Below, in pieces: positions 23,459 to 43,481 of a stretch of DNA of 64,000 nucleotides. This DNA is from Halovenus salina (GTDB lineage Archaea > Halobacteriota > Halobacteria > Halobacteriales > Haloarculaceae): the NCBI RefSeq assembly GCF_026410925.1, contig NZ_CP112973.1, positions 124,001 to 188,000 of the forward strand, written 5' to 3'. Every line of letters begins with the position of its first letter. Positions within the stretch are counted from its first letter, which is position 1. A program made the translations under genes and the position numbers. Under the pieces are notes generated by a model, which made no database searches, was not told where the DNA came from, and was given only the letters and a program-made list of their open reading frames with translations.

Positions 23459-24935
23459 TACGATTAGTACAGTTTCCGACACTAAAGTATCTAGCGGCTG
23501 GTACAATCGGGGGTATACACACCGGATTTCGAGTGAAACTCGGGGAATCTATTACGACTTATCAGAAAAACCGTGAATCTATGTCTTCTTCTTGTCCGAG
23601 TGAGAAAATGATACATCGCACTGCGAGTCTTGCACCGGAACTCGTTTCAGTTACACGAACTCAAATCGCTCGGTATCGTACAGAAGCACGGGTTGTTTGT
23701 GCAGCGAAACGCTCAAATGATCTAACTGAAAACGCTTGGGTATGGGGCCGGTTGCGTACCGAGACCAAATTTACGAAATATTTGCAGATCCGAACACAGA
23801 ATTTGAGACTCAAATCAAGCAGGCCCTTGATCTCGGTACTGAATATCTCAACCTTTCAGTGGGCTTTTTTACGCGTATCACTGACGGCACGCAAAAAATT
23901 CTTCACGCAACCGGAGACCATCCGCTTATCCAACCCGGGGAAAGCTGCCCGCTCGATGAAGCCTACTGTCGTCGAACCATCGCAATTGATAGCCAACTCG
24001 CCATTGAGGACGCACATGCGTCCACAGAGATTCCCGACACTGCTATTGAGACGTTCGGTTTGGGGGCGTACATCGGCGCGAAAGTCATCGTCGGTGGCGA
24101 AGTGTATGGGACGGCGTGCTTTGCTGATACAGAGCCACGCGAGGACCCCTTTGTTGACGCAGAACGGTTCTTCGTTGAACTGATCGCTAGACTCGGTGGG
24201 CAAGCCATCGAACGGCGGAGCTACGAACGAGAACTCGCACAGCACGAAGAGCGGTTGAACGAGCAAGAAGAAATATACCGAGCCGTCATTGAGGCCAATT
24301 TCGACTCCATCTTTCGGTTCGATACTGACGGAATGTTCACATATGCGTCCGAAAGCGTCCGCGATCTGTTGGGCTATTCACCAGCAGAACTTATTGGCCA
24401 ACCGGTAACGATCACCCATCCGGATGCACAGACCAGCGAGCGGACGTTGAAACATCGCTCACAGATACTGAGCGGGGAGCCAGCCGAAGCCCAAGATTTG
24501 CCACTAAAAAAGAAATCAGGTGACATCATCTATACGGATATTCGCGGTGTCCCGATCTATGACGGGAGCGTGCCGGAGTCGGAACGCTCCGAGGACGACA
24601 TCGTCGGGATACAGATATTGATCCGTGATGCAACAGAACGTCGCCAGCGGGAAGGGCTCATCAGCGTGATCAACCGAGTGCTTCGACACAACGTGCGAAA
24701 CGAGATGTCTGTGATCCGGACTTGGGCAGAGGTGCTTGCCGAAGACATGGATGCGGAGCAGGCTACCAAAGCAACAGCGATCAGGGCAGCTGCGACGCGG
24801 TTGCTTGATCTGACCGAATCTGCGCAGCAAATCGAACAAAATCGTGAGATTTCGCCCGAGTTGGAGTTGACGGATATTATTCCGCTGGTCAATCGTATTG
24901 TCACTGAGTGTGAGACACGGTATCCAGACGTCTCA

Positions 24936-26056
24936 TAGTGATTAGGCAAGTGATTTGCTTATCGAGATCTTAGAGCCTGTAATGGGTCGGCTTGACGATG
25001 TCACGCTCGAAGAACTCTACAAGCTCAAGGACCAGATCGACGAAGGAAAGCCGCGAGAACGTGTTCTCGCGGCGATCGGCCGCAAGCAAGGCGATCAAAT
25101 AGACACGCTGGCTGAGCGCCACGGTGTTGTTACGCGAACGATTCAAAATTGGCTCAATCGGTTCAAGGAACAACCGATTGAGCAAGCTCCTTACGACGCT
25201 CCCCGACCAGGTGGTCCGGCTAAGATCGATGGAGCAGAGCGCGAGCAACTCTTCGAACAACTACAACAGCCACCGACTGAACTCGGCTACGACCAACAAG
25301 CTTGGTCAGCGAAACTTCTGCTTCACCACGTCAAAGAGGAGTATGGCGTCGAATACCACGAAACATACGCGTATGACTTATTGAGAGAGGCCGGGCTGTC
25401 CTGTCGGACAGCACGGCCTCGCCACCACGAGGCCGACCCCCAAGACAAAGCCGAGTTCGAAGACACAGTCGAAAAAACGCCCCGAACTGAGCGAGAAAAC
25501 TGTCGTTGTCGTCGATCAATTCACCAAACACGTTGGCACTGTCTTGCGGCGTGGCTGGTTCCCGATCGGCTCGAATCCAACTGTCGAGACTTCGACTTCG
25601 TGGGAGTCGGTGACAGTGCTGGGCGCTGTCACCGACGATGGCGACAGCTTCTATTGCTGGACGGACGAGAACCTGACCCGGTTCCACGGAATCCGACTGT
25701 TAGAAGCGCTACAAGAGCGCTTCGGTGACGAGTTGGTGGTGTTTCTTGACCGGGCAGGCTACTTCTGGGCACGGGATCTCTGGGAGCACGTCAGCGGCAC
25801 CCGAGCGACCGAAACTGTCGGAGACAGTTCGGTCGCGTGCGTACGTGGTGACGATCTCGAGGTCTGGTACTTCCCGTCGAAGCTTCCCGAATTAAACGCC
25901 GTCGAAGGCTGCTGGGACCAGCTTCAGGAGTGGTTCAAGCATCGACTCGTTCCTGATCTCTCGACGCTGGAAGAGTATCTTCGACAAGGGCTGAGCACGA
26001 TCAACGAACCAGATATTTGGCCATATCTCACCAGCAAATATTTGTCCTAGTCACTA
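24936..26056 (+). mobile_element. IS630-family element, copy A
   Basis: Imperfect terminal repeats start TAGTGATTAGG at the left and, read inward, TAGTGACTAGG at the right. The flanks carry a 3-bp duplication, TCA. The element is nearly identical to the one at 34326-35447 except for one A fewer in an A-tract and a G-to-C change. Length 1,121 bp. Confidence 0.88.
24982..26050 (+). pseudogene. IS630-family transposase, copy A, frame broken
   Basis: The first frame encodes an HTH module (GRLDDVTLEELYKLKDQIDEG, HGVVTRTIQNWLNRFKEQP) up to about 25477. The second frame (25478-26050) carries the DDE domain (VVVVDQFTKHVGTV, VVFLDRAGYFWARD, ELNAVEGCWDQLQEWF). In this copy the junction reads GAAAAAACG with six A, so the two frames differ by +1. 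The A_AAA_AAC slip site of copy B is destroyed and full-length transposase is not expected. It may be mobilised in trans by copy B. Confidence 0.8.
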
Positions 26057-26390
26057 TCAATAACTGTTGACGCGCCGGATAAAGCGATCGCGGAAACGCT
26101 TCCACGCGTTGAAATAGCGCTATTTGAACTTGTGGACAACGCCGCAAAGCATGGGGGAACCCCTGCATCCGTCGGAATTGAGGTGGGTGTTTCGGACCTT
26201 TGGATCACCTGCCGAATATGCGATGACGGGCCGGGACTTCCAAATACAGAACGGGACGTCTTAGAAGCGGGCGAAGAGACACCGCTTGTCCATGGACAGG
26301 GGCTTGGACTGTGGGTGAGCTATTGGATTATCACGACGTTAGATGGAGAAATCGAAGTCACGGAAGCCGATCAAGGAACGACGATCGAAA

Positions 26391-33436: not shown

Positions 33437-34325
33437 TTGTCTGTGTCCTGGTTCGTCATCTGTTCCCCTAATAGTTTGTACCGTCTCTCTATGAGACTCC
33501 CTTCCTGCTGTCGACGCCTCGCAGAGGCGACTCCAGCCGAGATACTGTGGTCAATCGGCGTCGTTCTCGTCCGGTATGTCTTCGTCGACTGCGCCGACAG
33601 TGTCGCGGTCGACTGTCACCCTGACTTTCTGGATACGGGTGTTTTCCACCTGTTCAGCTCGAAGCGTGACGTTCTCGTAGTCGAACTCCTCGTCCTGTTC
33701 AACGAGCCGGCCTGCAAGGTTGAACACAAAGCCTGCGATGCTCTCGAACTCCTCGCCTTCTGGGAGTACGATGTCGAGCGCTTCGTTGATTTCCTCGATG
33801 TTAACCTCGCCGTTCACAAGGATAGTATCGTCACCGGCGAATTGAATCGGCGTTTCCTCGTCACCCGCTAGTATCTCACCGACTATCTCTTCGGTCATGT
33901 CTTCCATCGTGATGAGACCCTCAGTGGCACCGAACTCGTCGACCACGATGACCATGTGCAGTCGATTCTCGCGCATCTCGGAGAAGAGTGTATCGACGTT
34001 CTTCGATTCGGGAACGTGAAGCGTCTGACTGGCCTCATTTTCGACCTTGCTGTCGGCGAATTCGTCGTAGTTCGACTCGGTCAAGTCACGGATGTCGAAG
34101 ACACCGACGACGTTGTCGAGCGAGCCCTCATACACCGGGAGACGAGCATGTCCTGACCCGATGCACTTTCTGATTGCTTGCTCAACGGTCGCCTCGCTCG
34201 AAATAGCCGCCATGTCGAGTCGCGGGGTCATCACTTCCTTGGCACTGGCGTCGGTGAACCGCAGAGCACGCTGGAGGCGCTGGCGTTCCTCCTCGTCAAG
34301 GACGCCCTCGCGCCCGCCCGTCTGA

Positions 34326-35447
34326 TAGTGATTAGGCAAGTGATTTGCTTATCGAGATCTTAGAGCCTGTAATGGGTCGGCTTGACGATGTCACGCTCGA
34401 AGAACTCTACAAGCTCAAGGACCAGATCGACGAAGGAAAGCCGCGAGAACGTGTTCTCGCGGCGATCGGCCGCAAGCAAGGCGATCAAATAGACACGCTG
34501 GCTGAGCGCCACGGTGTTGTTACGCGAACGATTCAAAATTGGCTCAATCGGTTCAAGGAACAACCGATTGAGCAAGCTCCTTACGACGCTCCCCGACCAG
34601 GTGGTCCGGCTAAGATCGATGGAGCAGAGCGCGAGCAACTCTTCGAACAACTACAACAGCCACCGACTGAACTCGGCTACGACCAACAAGCTTGGTCAGC
34701 GAAACTTCTGCTTCACCACGTCAAAGAGGAGTATGGCGTCGAATACCACGAAACATACGCGTATGACTTATTGAGAGAGGCCGGGCTGTCCTGTCGGACA
34801 GCACGGCCTCGCCACCACGAGGCCGACCCCCAAGACAAAGCCGAGTTCGAAGACACAGTCGAAAAAAACGCCCCGAACTGAGCGAGAAAACTGTCGTTGT
34901 CGTCGATCAATTCACCAAACACGTTGGCACTGTCTTGCGGCGTGGCTGGTTCCCGATCGGCTCGAATCCAACTGTCGAGACTTCGACTTCGTGGGAGTCG
35001 GTGACAGTGCTGGGCGCTGTCACCGACGATGGCGACAGCTTCTATTGCTGGACGGACGAGAACCTGACCCGGTTCCACGGAATCCGACTGTTAGAAGCGC
35101 TACAAGAGCGCTTCGGTGACGAGTTGGTGGTGTTTCTTGACCGGGCAGGCTACTTCTGGGCACGGGATCTCTGGGAGCACCTCAGCGGCACCCGAGCGAC
35201 CGAAACTGTCGGAGACAGTTCGGTCGCGTGCGTACGTGGTGACGATCTCGAGGTCTGGTACTTCCCGTCGAAGCTTCCCGAATTAAACGCCGTCGAAGGC
35301 TGCTGGGACCAGCTTCAGGAGTGGTTCAAGCATCGACTCGTTCCTGATCTCTCGACGCTGGAAGAGTATCTTCGACAAGGGCTGAGCACGATCAACGAAC
35401 CAGATATTTGGCCATATCTCACCAGCAAATATTTGTCCTAGTCACTA
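34326..35447 (+). mobile_element. IS630-family element, copy B
   Basis: 1,122 bp with the same termini as copy A (TAGTGATTAGG outward-left, CCTAGTCACTA right) and a TGA duplication at 34323-34325 and 35448-35450. It is inserted in the CNNM-type gene. Compared with copy A it has seven rather than six A at the frame junction. Confidence 0.9.
34372..35441 (+). CDS. IS630-family transposase, two frames joined by a slip site
   Basis: Frame 1 (34372-34881) is the HTH part, GRLDDVTLEELYKLK to EFEDTVEKNAPN. Frame 2 continues from about 34866 to 35441 and carries the DDE residues (VVVVDQFTKHVGT, VVFLDRAGYFW, ELNAVEGCWDQLQ). The frames meet at GA[A AAA AAC]G, a canonical A_AAA_AAC heptamer in the right phase for -1 slippage. 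Slippage would give a fused protein EDTVEKK-RPELSEKTVVVVD. The first catalytic Asp lies only in frame 2, so active enzyme requires the fusion. Confidence 0.82.
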
Positions 35448-36074
35448 TGAATCATATTCCGAATCTCATCCCGCGTGACGTACGTCGACTCCATGGACGG
35501 ACTGCCGCCCGTAATTTGGTTCACGATGCGTGTCAGGTAGTAAAACACCGTTATGAGTGGCCACAGCACCTTCTCGACAGCGGTTAGTCCGAGGGCAACG
35601 CGCCGGGCATGCAGTTCGGTGTTCTCGACGGCGTACGATTTGGGTGCGCTCTCGCCAAATACTAGCACCATCGACGTAATACCGAGCGACGAGACGATGA
35701 CTGCTGTGCCGGCGTCGAAGTAGAAGCCGACGATAGTTGTCGAGATAGAGGACATAGTGATGTTGACGATATTATTTCCGACAAGAATCGTCACGAGGAG
35801 GCGATGAGGGTCCTCTTTGAGAGACTTGACCGCTTTCGCGCCGGGCAGGTTTCGTTCGACCATCGCGTCAATCTGGTGGTTTGGGAGAGAGAACAACGCA
35901 ATCTCCGACGAGGAAAAACCCCGACCCGACCAAGAGCAGCAAAATCAGGCTCATACCGATAGCGGTGACTGCTGTTTGACCCAGTTCGATGCCGGTGATC
36001 GGCACAGTGTACTGTAAAAGCCGACCCTCGGATAGTGCTGTGAGCAGGGAAGTCCACATACTACCGCCTACCAG

Positions 36075-36428
36075 GTGCGCCAAAAAATAACCCCTGGCTA
36101 TCTTGATTCAGCCGACCAACTGAACGTGAAGCTCATCAACGGAGACAAACTCGTCGACACCCTCAACGGCTACTCGTCAGACCAGCTTCAGCACGTCGCA
36201 CGCTATGCCGAGGAGTTGGCGGAGCACAAAGCTCGCGAGGCCCGGCTTGAGGAGAAATCGGAGGACAACGAAATCGACGACCGACCGGACGATCTTCCGG
36301 ACGACGTCCCGTCAAAAGCCACGATCACAATCAAGGAGATCAACGACAACCGCTACTACTACTGGCAGTGGCGGGAAGGTGACAAGCTGAAGTCGAAATA
36401 TAAGGGGCCGGTTAACCCAGACCAATAA
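36075..36428 (+). CDS. DUF6788-like protein with a nuclease-tail-like N-terminus
   Basis: 117 residues from GTG 36075; GTG 36126 (VKLINGDKLVDTLNGY) is an alternative. The C-terminal part, ATITIKEINDNRYYYWQWREGDKLKSKYKGPV, matches the DUF6788 pattern of a Tyr-rich strand followed by R-E-G and K-Y-x-G-P. The front part, LNVKLINGDKLVDTLN, resembles the end of an Mrr-type endonuclease. A highly acidic linker joins them. It may therefore be a fusion or remnant. It sits next to a pseudogene. Confidence 0.5.
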   Translation: MRQKITPGYLDSADQLNVKLINGDKLVDTLNGYSSDQLQHVARYAEELAEHKAREARLEEKSEDNEIDDRPDDLPDDVPSKATITIKEINDNRYYYWQWREGDKLKSKYKGPVNPDQ

Positions 36429-36575
36429 CTGTTGTTGGTGATACGATTTCTTTATTCGCAGTAATTCGATTGTTCGCTGGCATTGGGGCTGCAAACTGTC
36501 GCATCTAGACCTGTTCTCTCAATCAGCATTACTTGTCTGACTGATCTTCTTGTATCAGTGGCTCAGAGTTCGTGT

Positions 36576-37601
36576 ATGGAGGATATCGTGGAATCGGCTC
36601 TTGAGAAATCCACGAGCCCGTGTTCAGAGGAGAGGGCGTGCCTGGTCAGCACAGATGCGTTTCTCCCCCCAGAATGTGCCGTTGTCGGGTGTGGGTCAGT
36701 AGGAATCGATTGGCTCCGTCACGCGGACGCAGCACACATCGACATCGCTCTCGGTGGCAAGCCCACACTCGAATCGATGGACGACCTACCCGATACTCAG
36801 ATTCGGGTGTCAAAAGCTGCTCCTGATGACCGATCATCAAGAATTGAGTCCCATGATTTCGGTCAAGCACTGGACATCCCCTTTGACCAGCTAGATATCG
36901 TTGCTGTCGTACTCCGTCTCGACGAACCAGAACTCGCTTATCTGGCTGCTTCTGTCTGTCGCTCACTTGAGGACGACCAGACCGTGTTTGCAGTCCCAGC
37001 AATTCCAGAGAACGGTCTCTCCGAAGCATCTACTGTAGCGTTTACTGCTCTCGTCGATGCTGCAGGAACAACGGTTCCGTACGATCTTGGCCGGATTCGT
37101 GACAGCTTTGCAGATGCGTTCTCTGATGAATCCCAGCAGGAAGTTCTCGACACGACTGGCAGCGTGATGATCGACTGGGTGGAAGATGTCTTCGAGGCAC
37201 TTCGTGATCCGCTGACGGTTCCCCTCAACTGTGCTGATGCGCATGCACTCCTGCAGGATGGTGGTGTCTCACTGCTGTACCGGGGTTGGGGGTGTCGTGA
37301 TAATCTCCCCGACGTGTTGCTTCAGGATGCTGCGGCACATCGCGTGTGTGACGGTAATCGGTCGAGTGCCGACGGCGGGTTCGGCTTCCTCCGGTTCGGA
37401 GAGCCATTCACATTGAGGGAATTCGAGGCCGTCGAACAACATGCCGAGAGCGTGTTTCGTCCCGAAGGGGTGGATTCGGAGCAATGGCTCATGTCAGGGC
37501 AGTCGTCGCTGGCCCTGGGTGACAACTGTTGGCTCGCGTTCCTCCTCACTGGCATCGATGCGAAATCGCTTCCGTTCCTACAAGACCGATGCGCGAAGTG
37601 A
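36576..37601 (+). CDS. Degenerate FtsZ/tubulin-like protein
   Basis: 341 residues from MEDIVESALEKSTSP; an upstream extension to 36483 is hydrophobic and improbable. The fold can be followed along FtsZ. ECAVVGCGSVGIDWLRHA takes the T1 loop position, TVFAVPAIPENG...AFTALVDAAGTTVPYDLGRI the strand and helix after the signature loop, VPLNCADAHALLQDGGVSLLYRGWG the T7/C-terminal domain start, and FGEPFTLREFEAVEQHAESVF the last helix. The tubulin signature GGGTGTG is absent (the region reads VVLRLDEPELAYLAAS), so GTP binding is doubtful. It overlaps the phosphatase gene by 13 bp. Confidence 0.6.
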   Translation: MEDIVESALEKSTSPCSEERACLVSTDAFLPPECAVVGCGSVGIDWLRHADAAHIDIALGGKPTLESMDDLPDTQIRVSKAAPDDRSSRIESHDFGQALDIPFDQLDIVAVVLRLDEPELAYLAASVCRSLEDDQTVFAVPAIPENGLSEASTVAFTALVDAAGTTVPYDLGRIRDSFADAFSDESQQEVLDTTGSVMIDWVEDVFEALRDPLTVPLNCADAHALLQDGGVSLLYRGWGCRDNLPDVLLQDAAAHRVCDGNRSSADGGFGFLRFGEPFTLREFEAVEQHAESVFRPEGVDSEQWLMSGQSSLALGDNCWLAFLLTGIDAKSLPFLQDRCAK

Positions 37602-37999
37602 CCGAGCAACTGTACTACGGCGGCACAGAGTCCGCGGCTAACCACGACCAGTACCAGCGCCATGGCATCGAACACGTGATTCAATTAACCTACGAAGAGC
37701 CAACAGGCGGCTATCCGGACCATGTCGATGTCTACACGTTCTCGATGATGGACGGGCCACAGAACAACGAGGATGTATTTCGAGCGGCCGTCTCGAAAGC
37801 CGTGAGTTTGGTTGGCCAAGGCCACCGCGTGCTCGTACACTGCTCGGCAGGACAAAGTCGGTCTGTCTGCGTTACAGCTGCGACACTCAGCCGGGTCGAA
37901 TCACTGTCGTTCGACGAGGCGTTCGAACGGCTTCGAGAAACTGGGCCAGTCAACACACACGAAACGCTGCGTGATCACGGTCGGAGCTGCTGTCGATGA
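37589..37999 (+). CDS. Dual-specificity protein phosphatase
   Basis: 136 residues with the Cys-phosphatase signature VLVHCSAGQSRSVCVTAA (H-C-x5-R-S) and an upstream acidic candidate for the general acid in FSMMDGPQNNED. LSFDEAFERLRETGPVNTHETLRDH forms the usual C-terminal helices. This class dephosphorylates Ser/Thr/Tyr. It starts 13 bp before the end of the FtsZ-like gene, so they are translationally coupled. The C-terminus is a little short (GRSCCR end), possibly from a mutation. A regulatory pairing with the FtsZ-like protein is likely but inferred. Confidence 0.85.
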   Translation: MREVTEQLYYGGTESAANHDQYQRHGIEHVIQLTYEEPTGGYPDHVDVYTFSMMDGPQNNEDVFRAAVSKAVSLVGQGHRVLVHCSAGQSRSVCVTAATLSRVESLSFDEAFERLRETGPVNTHETLRDHGRSCCR

Positions 38000-38197: not shown

Positions 38198-38707
38198 CTA
38201 TTCTCTCGGACAAACAGTCCCATCATCTCGACGGACGCGGTCGAACGTCGTGAGATACGCGATCCGGTCGCGAACCTCGTCGGTGTCCAGCTCTAATTCG
38301 GCAGCTAACTCATCGACGGTCATCGGCTCATCGAGTGCCTGGAGGACTTCGAGCCCTCGGTAGTACCTATTCGTGAGCTCTTGGAGGCGGCCCTCGATCG
38401 ACGTGGTCACCCCGTACCGTTCCTCAAGTTCGACCAAGGCTTCGTTCGCGAACGTTGCGAACTGATCGTCACCCAGGCGTTCGATCTGGGCTTCGAGTTC
38501 ATTCCGGACGACATCGTAATCGAGGCCGGCCTGCACCAGCATATTCATGTCCTCGATGTCGTCGTCGCGCCCGGCGATCGCCTTGAACAGGAAGATATCC
38601 TCGTTGCTGACCAGCCGGACCATTAGTTGATCCGTGTCGGGGAACGGCTCGCTGCGCTCTTGCATCTCGTCGGTGAGAACGAGCTTGTTCGCAACCTGCT
38701 GGGTCAA
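38198..38707 (-). pseudogene. DUF6036-type nucleotidyltransferase, C-terminal fragment
   Basis: The frame QQVANKLVLTDEMQERSE, then MVRLVSNEDIFLFKAIAGRDDDIEDM, is the second half of a haloarchaeal DUF6036/MNT-like nucleotidyltransferase. Such proteins start with a G-G-G-S-M nucleotidyl-transfer motif, which is absent here. The homology begins abruptly at 38707, exactly where the TnpB remnant's right end starts. A C-terminal HTH-like segment (MTVDELAAELELDTDEVRDRIAYL) remains. The 5' half has been lost. A TTG could initiate the fragment. Confidence 0.7.
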
Positions 38708-38717
38708 CTACCCCACC

Positions 38718-39330
38718 CTATGCGCCTTCGGCACTTTGAGGGTGGGGCTTGTCCATGGATTCGGCGTCGAACCCTTCCGGGTGGGCGGTGTATCCCCCAC
38801 TTGGCGTCACAGTCCCAGACTTTAGGGCGAGTTGACTGTCGCCCGTCCGCCGAGACGACTGTTGGCCTCGACGGACGTACCGCATACCGATATTCTTCGC
38901 CGCGTTATAATCTGCGTTCGCTTCCGAGTCACACTTCTGACACCGGAAATCGTTTCGATTCGGGCGATTCTCGTCCGCCGTGAATCCACACTCGGCACAC
39001 CGCTTAGACGTGTACGCCGACCCCACTTGCTTCACAGAAATACCCTCTGCTTCGGCTTTGTACGCTACTTGCTCGTACAGTGTTCGGAACGCCCACGTGT
39101 GCCCCCACGACGCTCCGGTGCGGTCGCGAATATGGGCCAAATCCTCGAACGCGATTACGTCACACTCGTACCGGAGTGCCTCGTCCACGATGGCGTTCGA
39201 CGCCCGGTGGGCGCTTCGCGTCCCGGTCTGTTGGAGTCCGGCGCGTACTTTTTCGAACTCGCGGAGGTTGTGGGTTAACTCCCGCCCGCTGAAAAAGTAG
39301 GCGGTACTCGTGACTGCGAGGTTTTCGTCA
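38718..39330 (-). pseudogene. TnpB remnant, N-terminally truncated
   Basis: Translation from about 39330 gives NLAVTSTAYFFSGRELTHNL, then VRAGLQQTGTRSAHR, CDVIAFEDLAHIRDRTGA (RuvC Glu), CAECGFTADENRPNRNDFRC (zinc finger) and [13 protein letters not shown] (final Asp), ending in a normal variable tail. The first 200 or so residues are missing because the frame runs directly into the orc gene on the other strand. The right end at 38709-38760 (ACCCCACCC...GGGTGGGG) is a hairpin. Decayed element. Confidence 0.82.
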
Positions 39331-41190: not shown

Positions 41191-43340
41191 TCACTGGAAA
41201 TCGGTTAGTTCTGGTTCACGCGCCCCTGAGAGTTCTTGTTGAATGTCCGTGCGATCCCATCCAAGTGGAGAGAGGACACTCTCTATCGCCCGGATAAGCT
41301 GAGTCTCATAGTACGACGCATCGTACGATTCGATCTCCTCTTGAGCCAACACGACCTGTTCCCGCGAGGTCTTCTCGTCGTCGACAACCACGTATTGGAT
41401 GTCCTGTCCCGGGTGGACAGCGAGGTCCTGGTCTCGAGCCCGCTTCAGCGCTGCCACGTTCTGTGTGTTCTGCGTGTAGCCCTCTGCGGTTTAGAGACAC
41501 GATTCCGTTCGACGAGTTGTTCGACTGGTACTGTTCTAGAATGAAGGCGCTTGATCGCATCCTGAAGACAATCGAGGACGGCGTCCGGTGATTGAGTCAC
41601 ATCTAGCCGTTCGAGACAGCTTCGTTGGACGTCCTTGATGAACGCTGGGGTTGAGCGCTGCCGAGCTTCGATACCGCGTATCTTGAAGTCGTTATTGCCG
41701 GCTACCTTCCCGAAGTACTTTGTCAACGCGCCGGCGTCGCTCTCCCGCTGCGGGACGAACGCAACCCAGTCATAATGTGCTTCGTGTTCGAGTCGGATCT
41801 CGACATCCTCCGTAATCTCCGTCGCAAGCGCGTTGAGGTCCTCGCGGTCTTCATCGTCGACATCGGGGTCCGTTGTCACCCAGATCGAATCAATGATTCC
41901 ATGGACGACCCGCCAACCACCGGCTTCCAGCCGCTGTTTCGCCGTCAGCAGAATTTCGCGAGCATACGCGTTGATCGCCTCGTGGCATTCGATCCGCCCG
42001 AACTTCGCGTTGCTGAATCCCTGGTAGCCGAAGCAGGCGACGAGAATCCATTTCAGCGCTCCCGACCGCCCCTCGAGTTCGGCCAGCCGGTCCTTGTCGG
42101 AGTTGTCCTGACATTTCTCGTGACGAATGGCCGCCTTGATTTCGTCGCGAGCATCGATGATGGGTTGAAGGACATCAACGAGATAGCCGCGTTCGTCGCA
42201 AATCGAGTACCCTAGTCCAGGGACATCCTCGCGGTCGCTGTGACAGTCACACCGGATGACATCGGGTGAGACGTTCCGGGTGCAGATGATGTTCGGATAC
42301 AGACTTGAGAAGTCGAGTTCGTGGACATCCTCGTGGACGCCGACCTCGGGCGCGAAGATGAAGCCGCCGCGGTCGGCGTCGTGAAGCGTCCCCATCGGCT
42401 TGTAAAACTCGTGACGCCAAGAGTTCCACGGGACGAGTACGCCGCGGTCGTGGGCCTCACAAATCTGAATCGCGGTCAGCACGTTGCCGATGGATGCCCA
42501 CGCCAGCTCCTGGACGGGCTTCTTCGAGCGTGAGACGAGATCGAGGACACCGTCGAGATTCGTCTCCCCGTAGAAGAACGTGTTACTCTCGTCGATAATC
42601 GCCCGTCCGGGTACGTTATACCGCGCCGGCGAGTGGCCCACCCGGCCGTAGCTCGAGTATGTCGACCGACTTGCAAGTTGCTGGTAGTCGACGCCGGACC
42701 ACCGGCTCAGCGTGAATTCGTCGACGCTGGCGGCCGCGGCCATCTCGTACAGCGTCGGGATAATTTCACTCGTCGAGCAGACCAGGATATCCGGATTCTG
42801 GTTTTCGAGCGCTGCTTGGACGGCGGTCAGGATATCTGTCGGCGAGCCGGTAACGGTGTCACCTGCGACAGACAGCCCCCCATAGCTGTCGTTGCTCGTT
42901 TCGGTCACCGGAACGCTGAGCCGGAGCGTCGACAGCTCATTGGTCCGCGTCGGATCGACGTCTTCCTCGAGACAGTAGCGAAATTCTCGCGAGAAATCCA
43001 CGTTGAAACAGGCGAGGTCCCCGACCGGATACATGTTCAGCTGGCGTGCCTGCTGTGCGAGTGGGGTGACACAGTCGATGTGACCGACGTCGACGGCGAG
43101 GACTGACTCCTTGTCGCGACGGAACCCGGGACGACGCGTCACCATCTTGGTCGCGACAACGTCGGGGTGTTGGTCGTAGAACGATCGGAGTGCCGTGAGG
43201 TCGATGTCGTCGTCAGGGTTCCGGGCAGCGACGTAGAAGCGTGGGGTGTAGTCACCGCGCTCTGTTGCGACGGCGCCGTCGACGGTTGTTTCGCACTCAA
43301 GAACGCGACCGTCGTCCAAGAAGTCGATGGTGAACGCCAT
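41191..43340 (-). pseudogene. Family B DNA polymerase, frameshifted near its C-terminus
   Basis: From MAFTIDFLDDGRVLECE to about 41470 the polymerase motifs are intact: A HELDFSSLYPNIICTR, B GALKWILVACFGYQGFSNAKFG, C VVHGIIDSIWVTTDPD (one Asp of the usual D-x-D), and thumb region KYFGKVAGNNDFKIRGIEARQR. At VSKP the frame shifts by one base; the true continuation is EGYTQNTQNVAALKRARDQDLAVHPGQ, read to 41191. No DIE or N-x-x-x-F-D exonuclease motifs are visible in the N-terminal 250 residues. This matches plasmid-type PolB2-like enzymes. The shift may be a mutation or a sequence error. Confidence 0.83.
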
Positions 43341-43481
43341 TCTGTATAGAACCGACCGCTGCGTGTCGGATAACCGATGGCGTGTCACTTCCGGATTTCA
43401 GAGACGGATGTTTTACTTTCGCAGCTTACAGATATTTGAGTAACACAAAGATATATTGAGACACAGCACATCTGTACTACT

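Follow-up and report, generated by a model that had tools for sequence, protein, structure and literature searches.

The window, meaning the whole 64,000-nucleotide stretch of DNA analysed here, carries a pair of overlapping genes that encode a degenerate relative of FtsZ2 and a small dual-specificity phosphatase (DSP). On sequence evidence, the pair appears to represent a non-GTPase branch of FtsZ2 carried within a mobile phosphatase cassette. The first-pass annotation had proposed a tubulin-fold protein without its GTP signature, encoded on a plasmid together with a phosphatase and possibly acting on the host division machinery. The genes and segments on which our analysis rests are as follows.

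36576..37601, + strand: degenerate FtsZ2-like protein with a tubulin fold and without GTP motifs, 341 aa, ATG start
36576..36602, + strand: N-terminal helix MEDIVESAL, lying in the 10-residue segment with the highest identity to FtsZ2
36687..36704, + strand: T1-loop remnant GCGSVG, residues 38-43 (FtsZ2 has GAGGAG or GCGGAG)
36912..36950, + strand: segment aligned to T4 AGMGGGTGTGAAP, now LRLDEPELAYLAA, with the tubulin/FtsZ signature lost
37209..37265, + strand: T7 loop/H8 segment PLTVPLNCADAHALLQDGG, with the NxDxxD catalytic motif lost and its last D kept
37589..37601, + strand: 13-bp overlap of the FtsZ-like and DSP coding sequences, a layout typical of translational coupling
37589..37999, + strand: dual-specificity (Tyr/Ser/Thr) protein phosphatase, 136 aa, ATG start
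37838..37864, + strand: intact phosphatase P-loop HCSAGQSRS

Both genes lie where they had been annotated, with the 13-bp overlap, the GCGSVG loop, and the intact HCSAGQSRS loop all present. An in-frame TTG is found upstream of the FtsZ-like gene at position 36483; homologues begin at the ATG instead.

Fold and family of the two proteins

No Pfam or NCBIfam family was assigned to the 341-aa FtsZ-like protein in single-sequence searches. Neither PF00091 nor PF12327 matched it above the cut-off, and the best Pfam trace among its relatives was a below-cut-off match to FtsZ_C in one relative only (E=0.008). Because single-sequence searches of Pfam, NCBIfam, and the PDB were nearly blind, profiles were needed, and we used a family profile composed of the window protein and its degenerate relatives only, with no canonical FtsZ included. 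Against PDB sequences, this FtsZ-free profile matched 48 distinct FtsZ sequences, the best at E=4e-16 and over nearly the full length, indicating that the match to FtsZ is not due to chance.

Structure prediction gave the same answer. The main AlphaFold2 model of the window protein, whose input alignment contained FtsZ2 rows, reached a pLDDT of 84.2 and a pTM of 0.82, and when it was searched with Foldseek, all 50 of the 50 PDB matches listed were FtsZ (E values to 1.3e-18, TM about 0.7). Considering that the FtsZ2 rows could bias this model, we built a second one from family members alone; it was poor (pLDDT 48), and its top-ranked matches were still FtsZ (E 9e-5). FtsZ was the best match throughout, with no confident match to a non-tubulin fold. 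As had been proposed, the protein is by its profile matches and predicted structure a member of the FtsZ/tubulin superfamily, with a Rossmann-like N-terminal domain, a long H7, and a C-terminal domain.

The product of the downstream gene is, by sequence, a predicted Tyr/Ser/Thr-type phosphatase with an intact catalytic domain. It matches Pfam DSPc (PF00782) at E=7e-14 (52.2 bits versus a cut-off of 33.5), and its top match among PDB sequences is dual specificity protein phosphatase 12.

Probable FtsZ2 parentage and the motifs lost and kept

FtsZ2, rather than FtsZ in general or CetZ, is most likely the parent of the FtsZ-like protein. The first-pass annotation had been right about the tubulin/FtsZ superfamily and had called the protein FtsZ-like, a description that profile scores now favour narrowing to FtsZ2. 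In the window's own genome, the family profile matched FtsZ2 at E=9e-21 over positions 1-331 and FtsZ1 at 3e-5, and found no CetZ; across nearly all Halobacteria, it gave full-length matches with E values of roughly 1e-17 to 1e-25. When a tree was built with FtsZ1, FtsZ2, and CetZ, the six family members included formed a single clade (99/98) that joined FtsZ2 at 100/100, with the CetZ clade separate. The family branches in this tree are very long. An AU test on a reduced tree containing the two shortest branches only was undecided (FtsZ2, 0.33; FtsZ1, 0.11), so the assignment to FtsZ2 rests mainly on the scores and on the N-terminal helix.

Several other candidates were rejected as family members. 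The match in G164 is an ordinary FtsZ2, those in G115, G142, and G030 are a 2-oxoacid oxidoreductase-like protein and ordinary FtsZ2 paralogues, and an apparent tubulin-like motif, GGGAGAG, at L054 1170-4397 belongs to a helicase. Separately, the window's own chromosome carries three unusual tubulin-superfamily genes (437, 438, and 610 aa) within 10 kb (C1:1885166-1894630), which score only 44-53 bits with PF00091.

The motifs were compared one by one in an alignment of the window protein and family members with haloarchaeal FtsZ2. T2 (AINTD), T3 (GAGGDP), T4 (GGGTGTG), T5 (TPFxxERA), and T7 (NxDxxD) are lost as motifs in all members; the Haloferax marinum protein retains GASGDP near T3, and T1 of the family retains GxGxxG. 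The loss of GGGTGTG noted at the outset is therefore confirmed, with LRLDEPELAYLAA standing in its place, and it is accompanied by the loss of further motifs for GTP binding and hydrolysis. The T4 signature GGGTG[T/S]G is absent from every aligned family member. At the T7-loop/H8 entry to the C-terminal domain, VPLNCADAHALLQDGGVSLL of the window protein aligns with FtsZ2 SLINLDYADMTAIMNQGGVAVM; T7 here reads PLNCADAH, in which only the final acid of NxDxx[D/E] remains. The C-terminal anchor tail is missing from all family members. From these sequence changes, we infer that GTPase activity has been lost.

The stretch most like FtsZ2 is at the N terminus. The helix M-x-D-I/L-V-x-x-A-L (MQDIV..AL in FtsZ2) is retained in the long forms of the family, where it is the 10-residue segment with the highest identity to FtsZ2 (0.65 versus a median of 0.18). 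Conservation within the family is also highest at this helix (0.70), and the C-terminal-domain core is more conserved than the N-terminal domain (0.46 versus 0.32). The long forms additionally share derived residues, such as ADGGxGxxRFGxPFxLxEF. Together, the retained helix and the conserved C-terminal domain suggest that the protein may still meet FtsZ2 or FtsZ2 partners. A short form of 233 aa, restricted to one genus, has lost the FtsZ2-type helix while retaining the DSP, so the helix is dispensable in some members.

Recurrence of the pair and its genomic surroundings

A genome search with the protein identified true relatives, at 30-36% identity, in H. marinum (G343), H. marisrubri (G181), and G186. 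A profile search added a member in G469, and G077 carries a very divergent one. A survey of DSPs revealed the short form of the FtsZ-like gene preceding a DSP in G202, G266, and G372, which belong to one further genus, and a search with this form across 171 genomes of their family matched exactly those three. At the resulting nine loci in Halobacteria, the window included, the DSP lies directly downstream on the same strand in six, within 5-19 kb in two, and is missing from one. In each of the six adjacent pairs, the DSP follows the FtsZ-like gene on one strand, with either an overlap or a gap of about 3-26 bp: the gap is about 25 bp in both Haloferax genomes and 3 to about 25 bp in the three short-form genomes. 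The DSP of G186 is 4.9 kb from the FtsZ-like gene in one cluster, that of G077 is about 18 kb away, and no DSP was found in the G469 genome. Recurrence of this gene order, which had been named as a sign of support, was thus found in six genomes, distant ones included, and the pair is probably a real module; as a rule for the whole family, the pairing is not universal, with six cases adjacent, two near, and G469 without a DSP.

Among the six long or divergent members, a DSP is present in five, versus 28 of 288 genomes in the survey (Fisher p=7e-5, kinship uncorrected). Most of the 30-odd relatives of the window DSP have neighbours that are not FtsZ-like, so the phosphatase is not specific to the pair. 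The distribution of the FtsZ-like family is patchy, with the family profile finding it in 5 of 392 genomes at E<1e-70. Neither a tblastn search of phage and plasmid records with the protein nor a profile scan of viral contigs gave a match, and the most divergent member (G077) had no relatives in a sample excluding G077 itself.

The replication genes and other neighbours of the pair in the window are listed below.

36075..36428, + strand: small conserved plasmid gene, 117 aa
38198..38707, - strand: DUF6036 nucleotidyltransferase-like gene, 169 aa versus 267 aa in plasmid relatives
39453..40583, + strand: Orc1/Cdc6 plasmid replication initiator
41445..43388, - strand: family B DNA polymerase (PolB), part of a common haloarchaeal plasmid replication region

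In contig C2 (188,763 bp), the sequence starts over after 145,977 bp at 99.9% identity (C2:1-24,000 compared); the contig most likely represents a circular replicon of about 146 kb whose overlapping end was left untrimmed, with one copy of the pair. The two reported gene copies are therefore best read as one, and a duplication of the pair was rejected as a product of the circular-contig overlap. Window positions 21978-45977 and beyond fall in this repeat, and the assembly contains that part of the window twice. The suggested plasmid location is borne out by Orc1/Cdc6 and PolB on this ~146-kb plasmid-like replicon. Other haloarchaeal plasmids that lack the FtsZ-like/DSP pair have homologues of the gene at 36075-36428 adjoining Orc1/PolB, and on Haloplanus and Haloterrigena plasmids this homologue, DUF6036, Orc1, and PolB occur together, again without the pair. 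The FtsZ-like locus also lies beside plasmid replication genes at L132 and L134; the relatives in G186, G469, G077, and G202 are on megabase contigs that are likely chromosomes.

Other features of the region were recorded along the way. The truncated DUF6036 gene adjoins a TnpB-like fragment (window 38198-39188), and intact MarR+DUF6036 pairs beside Orc1/PolB on other haloarchaeal plasmids resemble a toxin-antitoxin-type pair. Two transposase elements (24929-26061 and 34319-35452; IS630-like by eye) are 99.6% identical, and a CBS-domain/CorC-like gene (33551-34339, 35438-35896) appears to be interrupted by the second.

The module had been described as a two-gene system. This holds for the pair itself, and in relatives the module is larger, including SIMPL proteins and calcineurin-like phosphoesterases. 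The order in Haloferax is SIMPL protein, FtsZ-like protein, DSP, and calcineurin-like phosphoesterase, with a second phosphoesterase adjoining SIMPL on the opposite strand. The same parts are present in a reshuffled order in G186; in G077, SIMPL adjoins the FtsZ-like gene and a phosphoesterase adjoins the DSP. Related combinations occur without an FtsZ-like gene on plasmids of Haloplanus rubicundus (L170; SIMPL-DSP-phosphoesterase), Haloarcula halophila (L169; SIMPL-DSP), and Halobellus ramosii (DSP-phosphoesterase), the SIMPL gene lying 10 bp 5' of the DSP in the first two. In the window, and likewise in the g53 copies, neither SIMPL nor a phosphoesterase adjoins the FtsZ-like and DSP genes, so these two persist on their own. 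Given these combinations with and without the FtsZ-like gene, the window pair may be a cut-down form of a mobile phosphatase cassette.

The Haloferax loci have further neighbours. In H. marisrubri, the FtsZ-like/DSP locus has E2-like, ubiquitin-like, and JAB-E1 genes (L055 3332-6437) no more than about 1.5 kb away, and about 6 kb from the pair a Tubulin_2 protein is encoded. Contig C3 of H. marinum, which also carries the pair, starts with three consecutive Tubulin_2-type genes (C3:19-9353).

Proposed function and comparison with known systems

Our preferred reading, which we put forward tentatively and at somewhat less than an even chance, is that this two-gene plasmid operon encodes an FtsZ2-derived, non-GTPase mimic that engages the host divisome and is tuned by the DSP. 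In this mimic, the tubulin fold would be retained together with the FtsZ2 helix at the N terminus, without the GTP motifs and the membrane-anchor tail. With T2 to T5 and T7 lost, neither binding nor hydrolysis of GTP is expected, so the protein would be unable to polymerise into FtsZ filaments alone. It could engage the divisome via the N-terminal helix, the C-terminal-domain face, or both, and might then cap, delay, or redirect FtsZ2 assembly, with the DSP controlling how far the mimic, or a partner that the two proteins share, is phosphorylated. FtsZ1 of Odinarchaeota is tethered to the membrane by an amphipathic helix at its N terminus, and FtsZ2 there binds SepF via its C-terminal tail (PMC12583498); SepF also binds FtsZ2 in H. 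volcanii (PMC8187382). The SepF-binding tail is absent from the window protein, and a kept helix with a missing tail would fit a mimic that docks without SepF anchoring. The more far-reaching version, in which a plasmid-borne pseudo-GTPase mimic of FtsZ2, controlled by the DSP (and, in relatives, also by SIMPL and calcineurin-like proteins), reprograms host division for the plasmid, we regard as doubtful.

The main rival to an FtsZ2 mimic is that the FtsZ-like protein acts as an accessory scaffold, or as a substrate, in a mobile phospho-signalling cassette that has no role in division, with the tubulin fold serving as a nucleotide-free platform. The clustering of SIMPL, FtsZ-like, DSP, and phosphoesterase genes in H. 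marinum, H. marisrubri, and G186 argues for such a cassette, as do the plasmids of Haloplanus, Haloarcula, and Halobellus that carry its other parts without the FtsZ-like gene. However, the FtsZ2 N-terminal helix is retained in all long forms despite divergence elsewhere, and the pair persists without SIMPL or phosphoesterase in the window and g53 copies; we consider this explanation unlikely, if still one to be reckoned with. A plasmid defence, anti-defence, or addiction module, in which the mimic brings division to a halt and the phosphatase either lifts this arrest or sets it off, would suit the patchy distribution and the replication genes beside the window, L132, and L134 loci. The H. marisrubri copy adjoins an E1/E2/JAB-like operon, and an eLife 2020 survey reports that FtsZ/tubulin and calcineurin-type domains occur, rarely, in conflict systems (PMC7159879). 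Such a module is nonetheless improbable, since PADLOC matches neither protein, further components of known systems (MoxR-vWA, GTPase) were not found beside the window pair, and a DSP beside a broken FtsZ-like gene (G372) or an FtsZ-like gene without a DSP (G469) would be odd for a toxin-antitoxin system.

Decay of a functionless FtsZ2 duplicate, with the phosphatase an incidental neighbour, would account for the very long branches, the motif loss, and the two in-frame stops in the G372 copy, alongside which the DSP is kept. We think this very improbable: the frames are open in eight of the nine family members at 22-36% identity, derived residues are shared among the long forms, and adjacency to the DSP is repeated. 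The dN/dS of the FtsZ-like gene (0.25 for G202/G266 and 0.32 for G343/G181; DSP, 0.23 and 0.09, respectively) points to purifying selection and likewise argues against decay. Least probable by far is plasmid partition by a TubZ-style filament, which the tubulin fold and the Orc1/Cdc6 neighbour on a plasmid might bring to mind. TubZ is an active GTPase, and partition by it requires GTP-driven filaments; here the GTP motifs are lost, neither a TubR-like gene nor a centromere was identified among the listed window neighbours, and relatives lie on likely chromosomes.

The tubulin superfamily is defined by GTP-driven assembly, and a recurrent, motif-less FtsZ2 relative under selection would be a pseudo-enzyme branch of it. 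Linkage to a phosphatase makes a connection between phospho-signalling and archaeal division testable, and the plasmid location suggests that mobile elements may tune division of their archaeal hosts. H. marinum and H. marisrubri carry the pair, and H. volcanii is a tractable host.

Archaeal FtsZ2 is the closest paralogue by score and shares full-length homology, the fold, and the N-terminal MxDIVxxAL helix with the window family. Unlike FtsZ2, the family lacks T2/T3/T4/T5, NxDxxD, the long linker, and the C-terminal DVIR-type tail, and the window protein is only about 20-22% identical to it, linked to a phosphatase, and patchily distributed. CetZ belongs to the same superfamily but retains the GTPase domain PF00091, which the window protein does not. 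Surveys of the archaeal tubulin superfamily describe FtsZ1, FtsZ2, and CetZ as well as non-canonical members of patchy occurrence (PMC9856176, PMC9871819), and a literature search covering mainly papers outside subscription yielded no description of a GTP-motif-less FtsZ2 relative with a DSP. FtsZl1, FtsZl2, and Tubulin_2 are likewise divergent FtsZ-superfamily families. FtsZl1 also has a linked gene set, with vWA, GTPase, and OmpA genes (Makarova and Koonin 2010, PMC2875224), whereas the partner of the window protein is a DSP. The window protein has no Pfam Tubulin_2 match, and PF13809 finds none on contig C2.

The window DSP has the catalytic domain and HCxxGxxRS loop of PF00782 dual-specificity phosphatases and differs from others in being small, stand-alone, archaeal, and co-encoded with an FtsZ-like protein. 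In TubZ/TubR/tubC systems, the plasmid also encodes a tubulin-superfamily protein, but that of the window has no GTP motifs and no DNA-binding partner was seen beside it. SulA and MciZ bind a longitudinal face of FtsZ; the likeness to these inhibitors lies only in the proposed mode of action, as they are not tubulin-fold proteins, unlike the protein encoded here.
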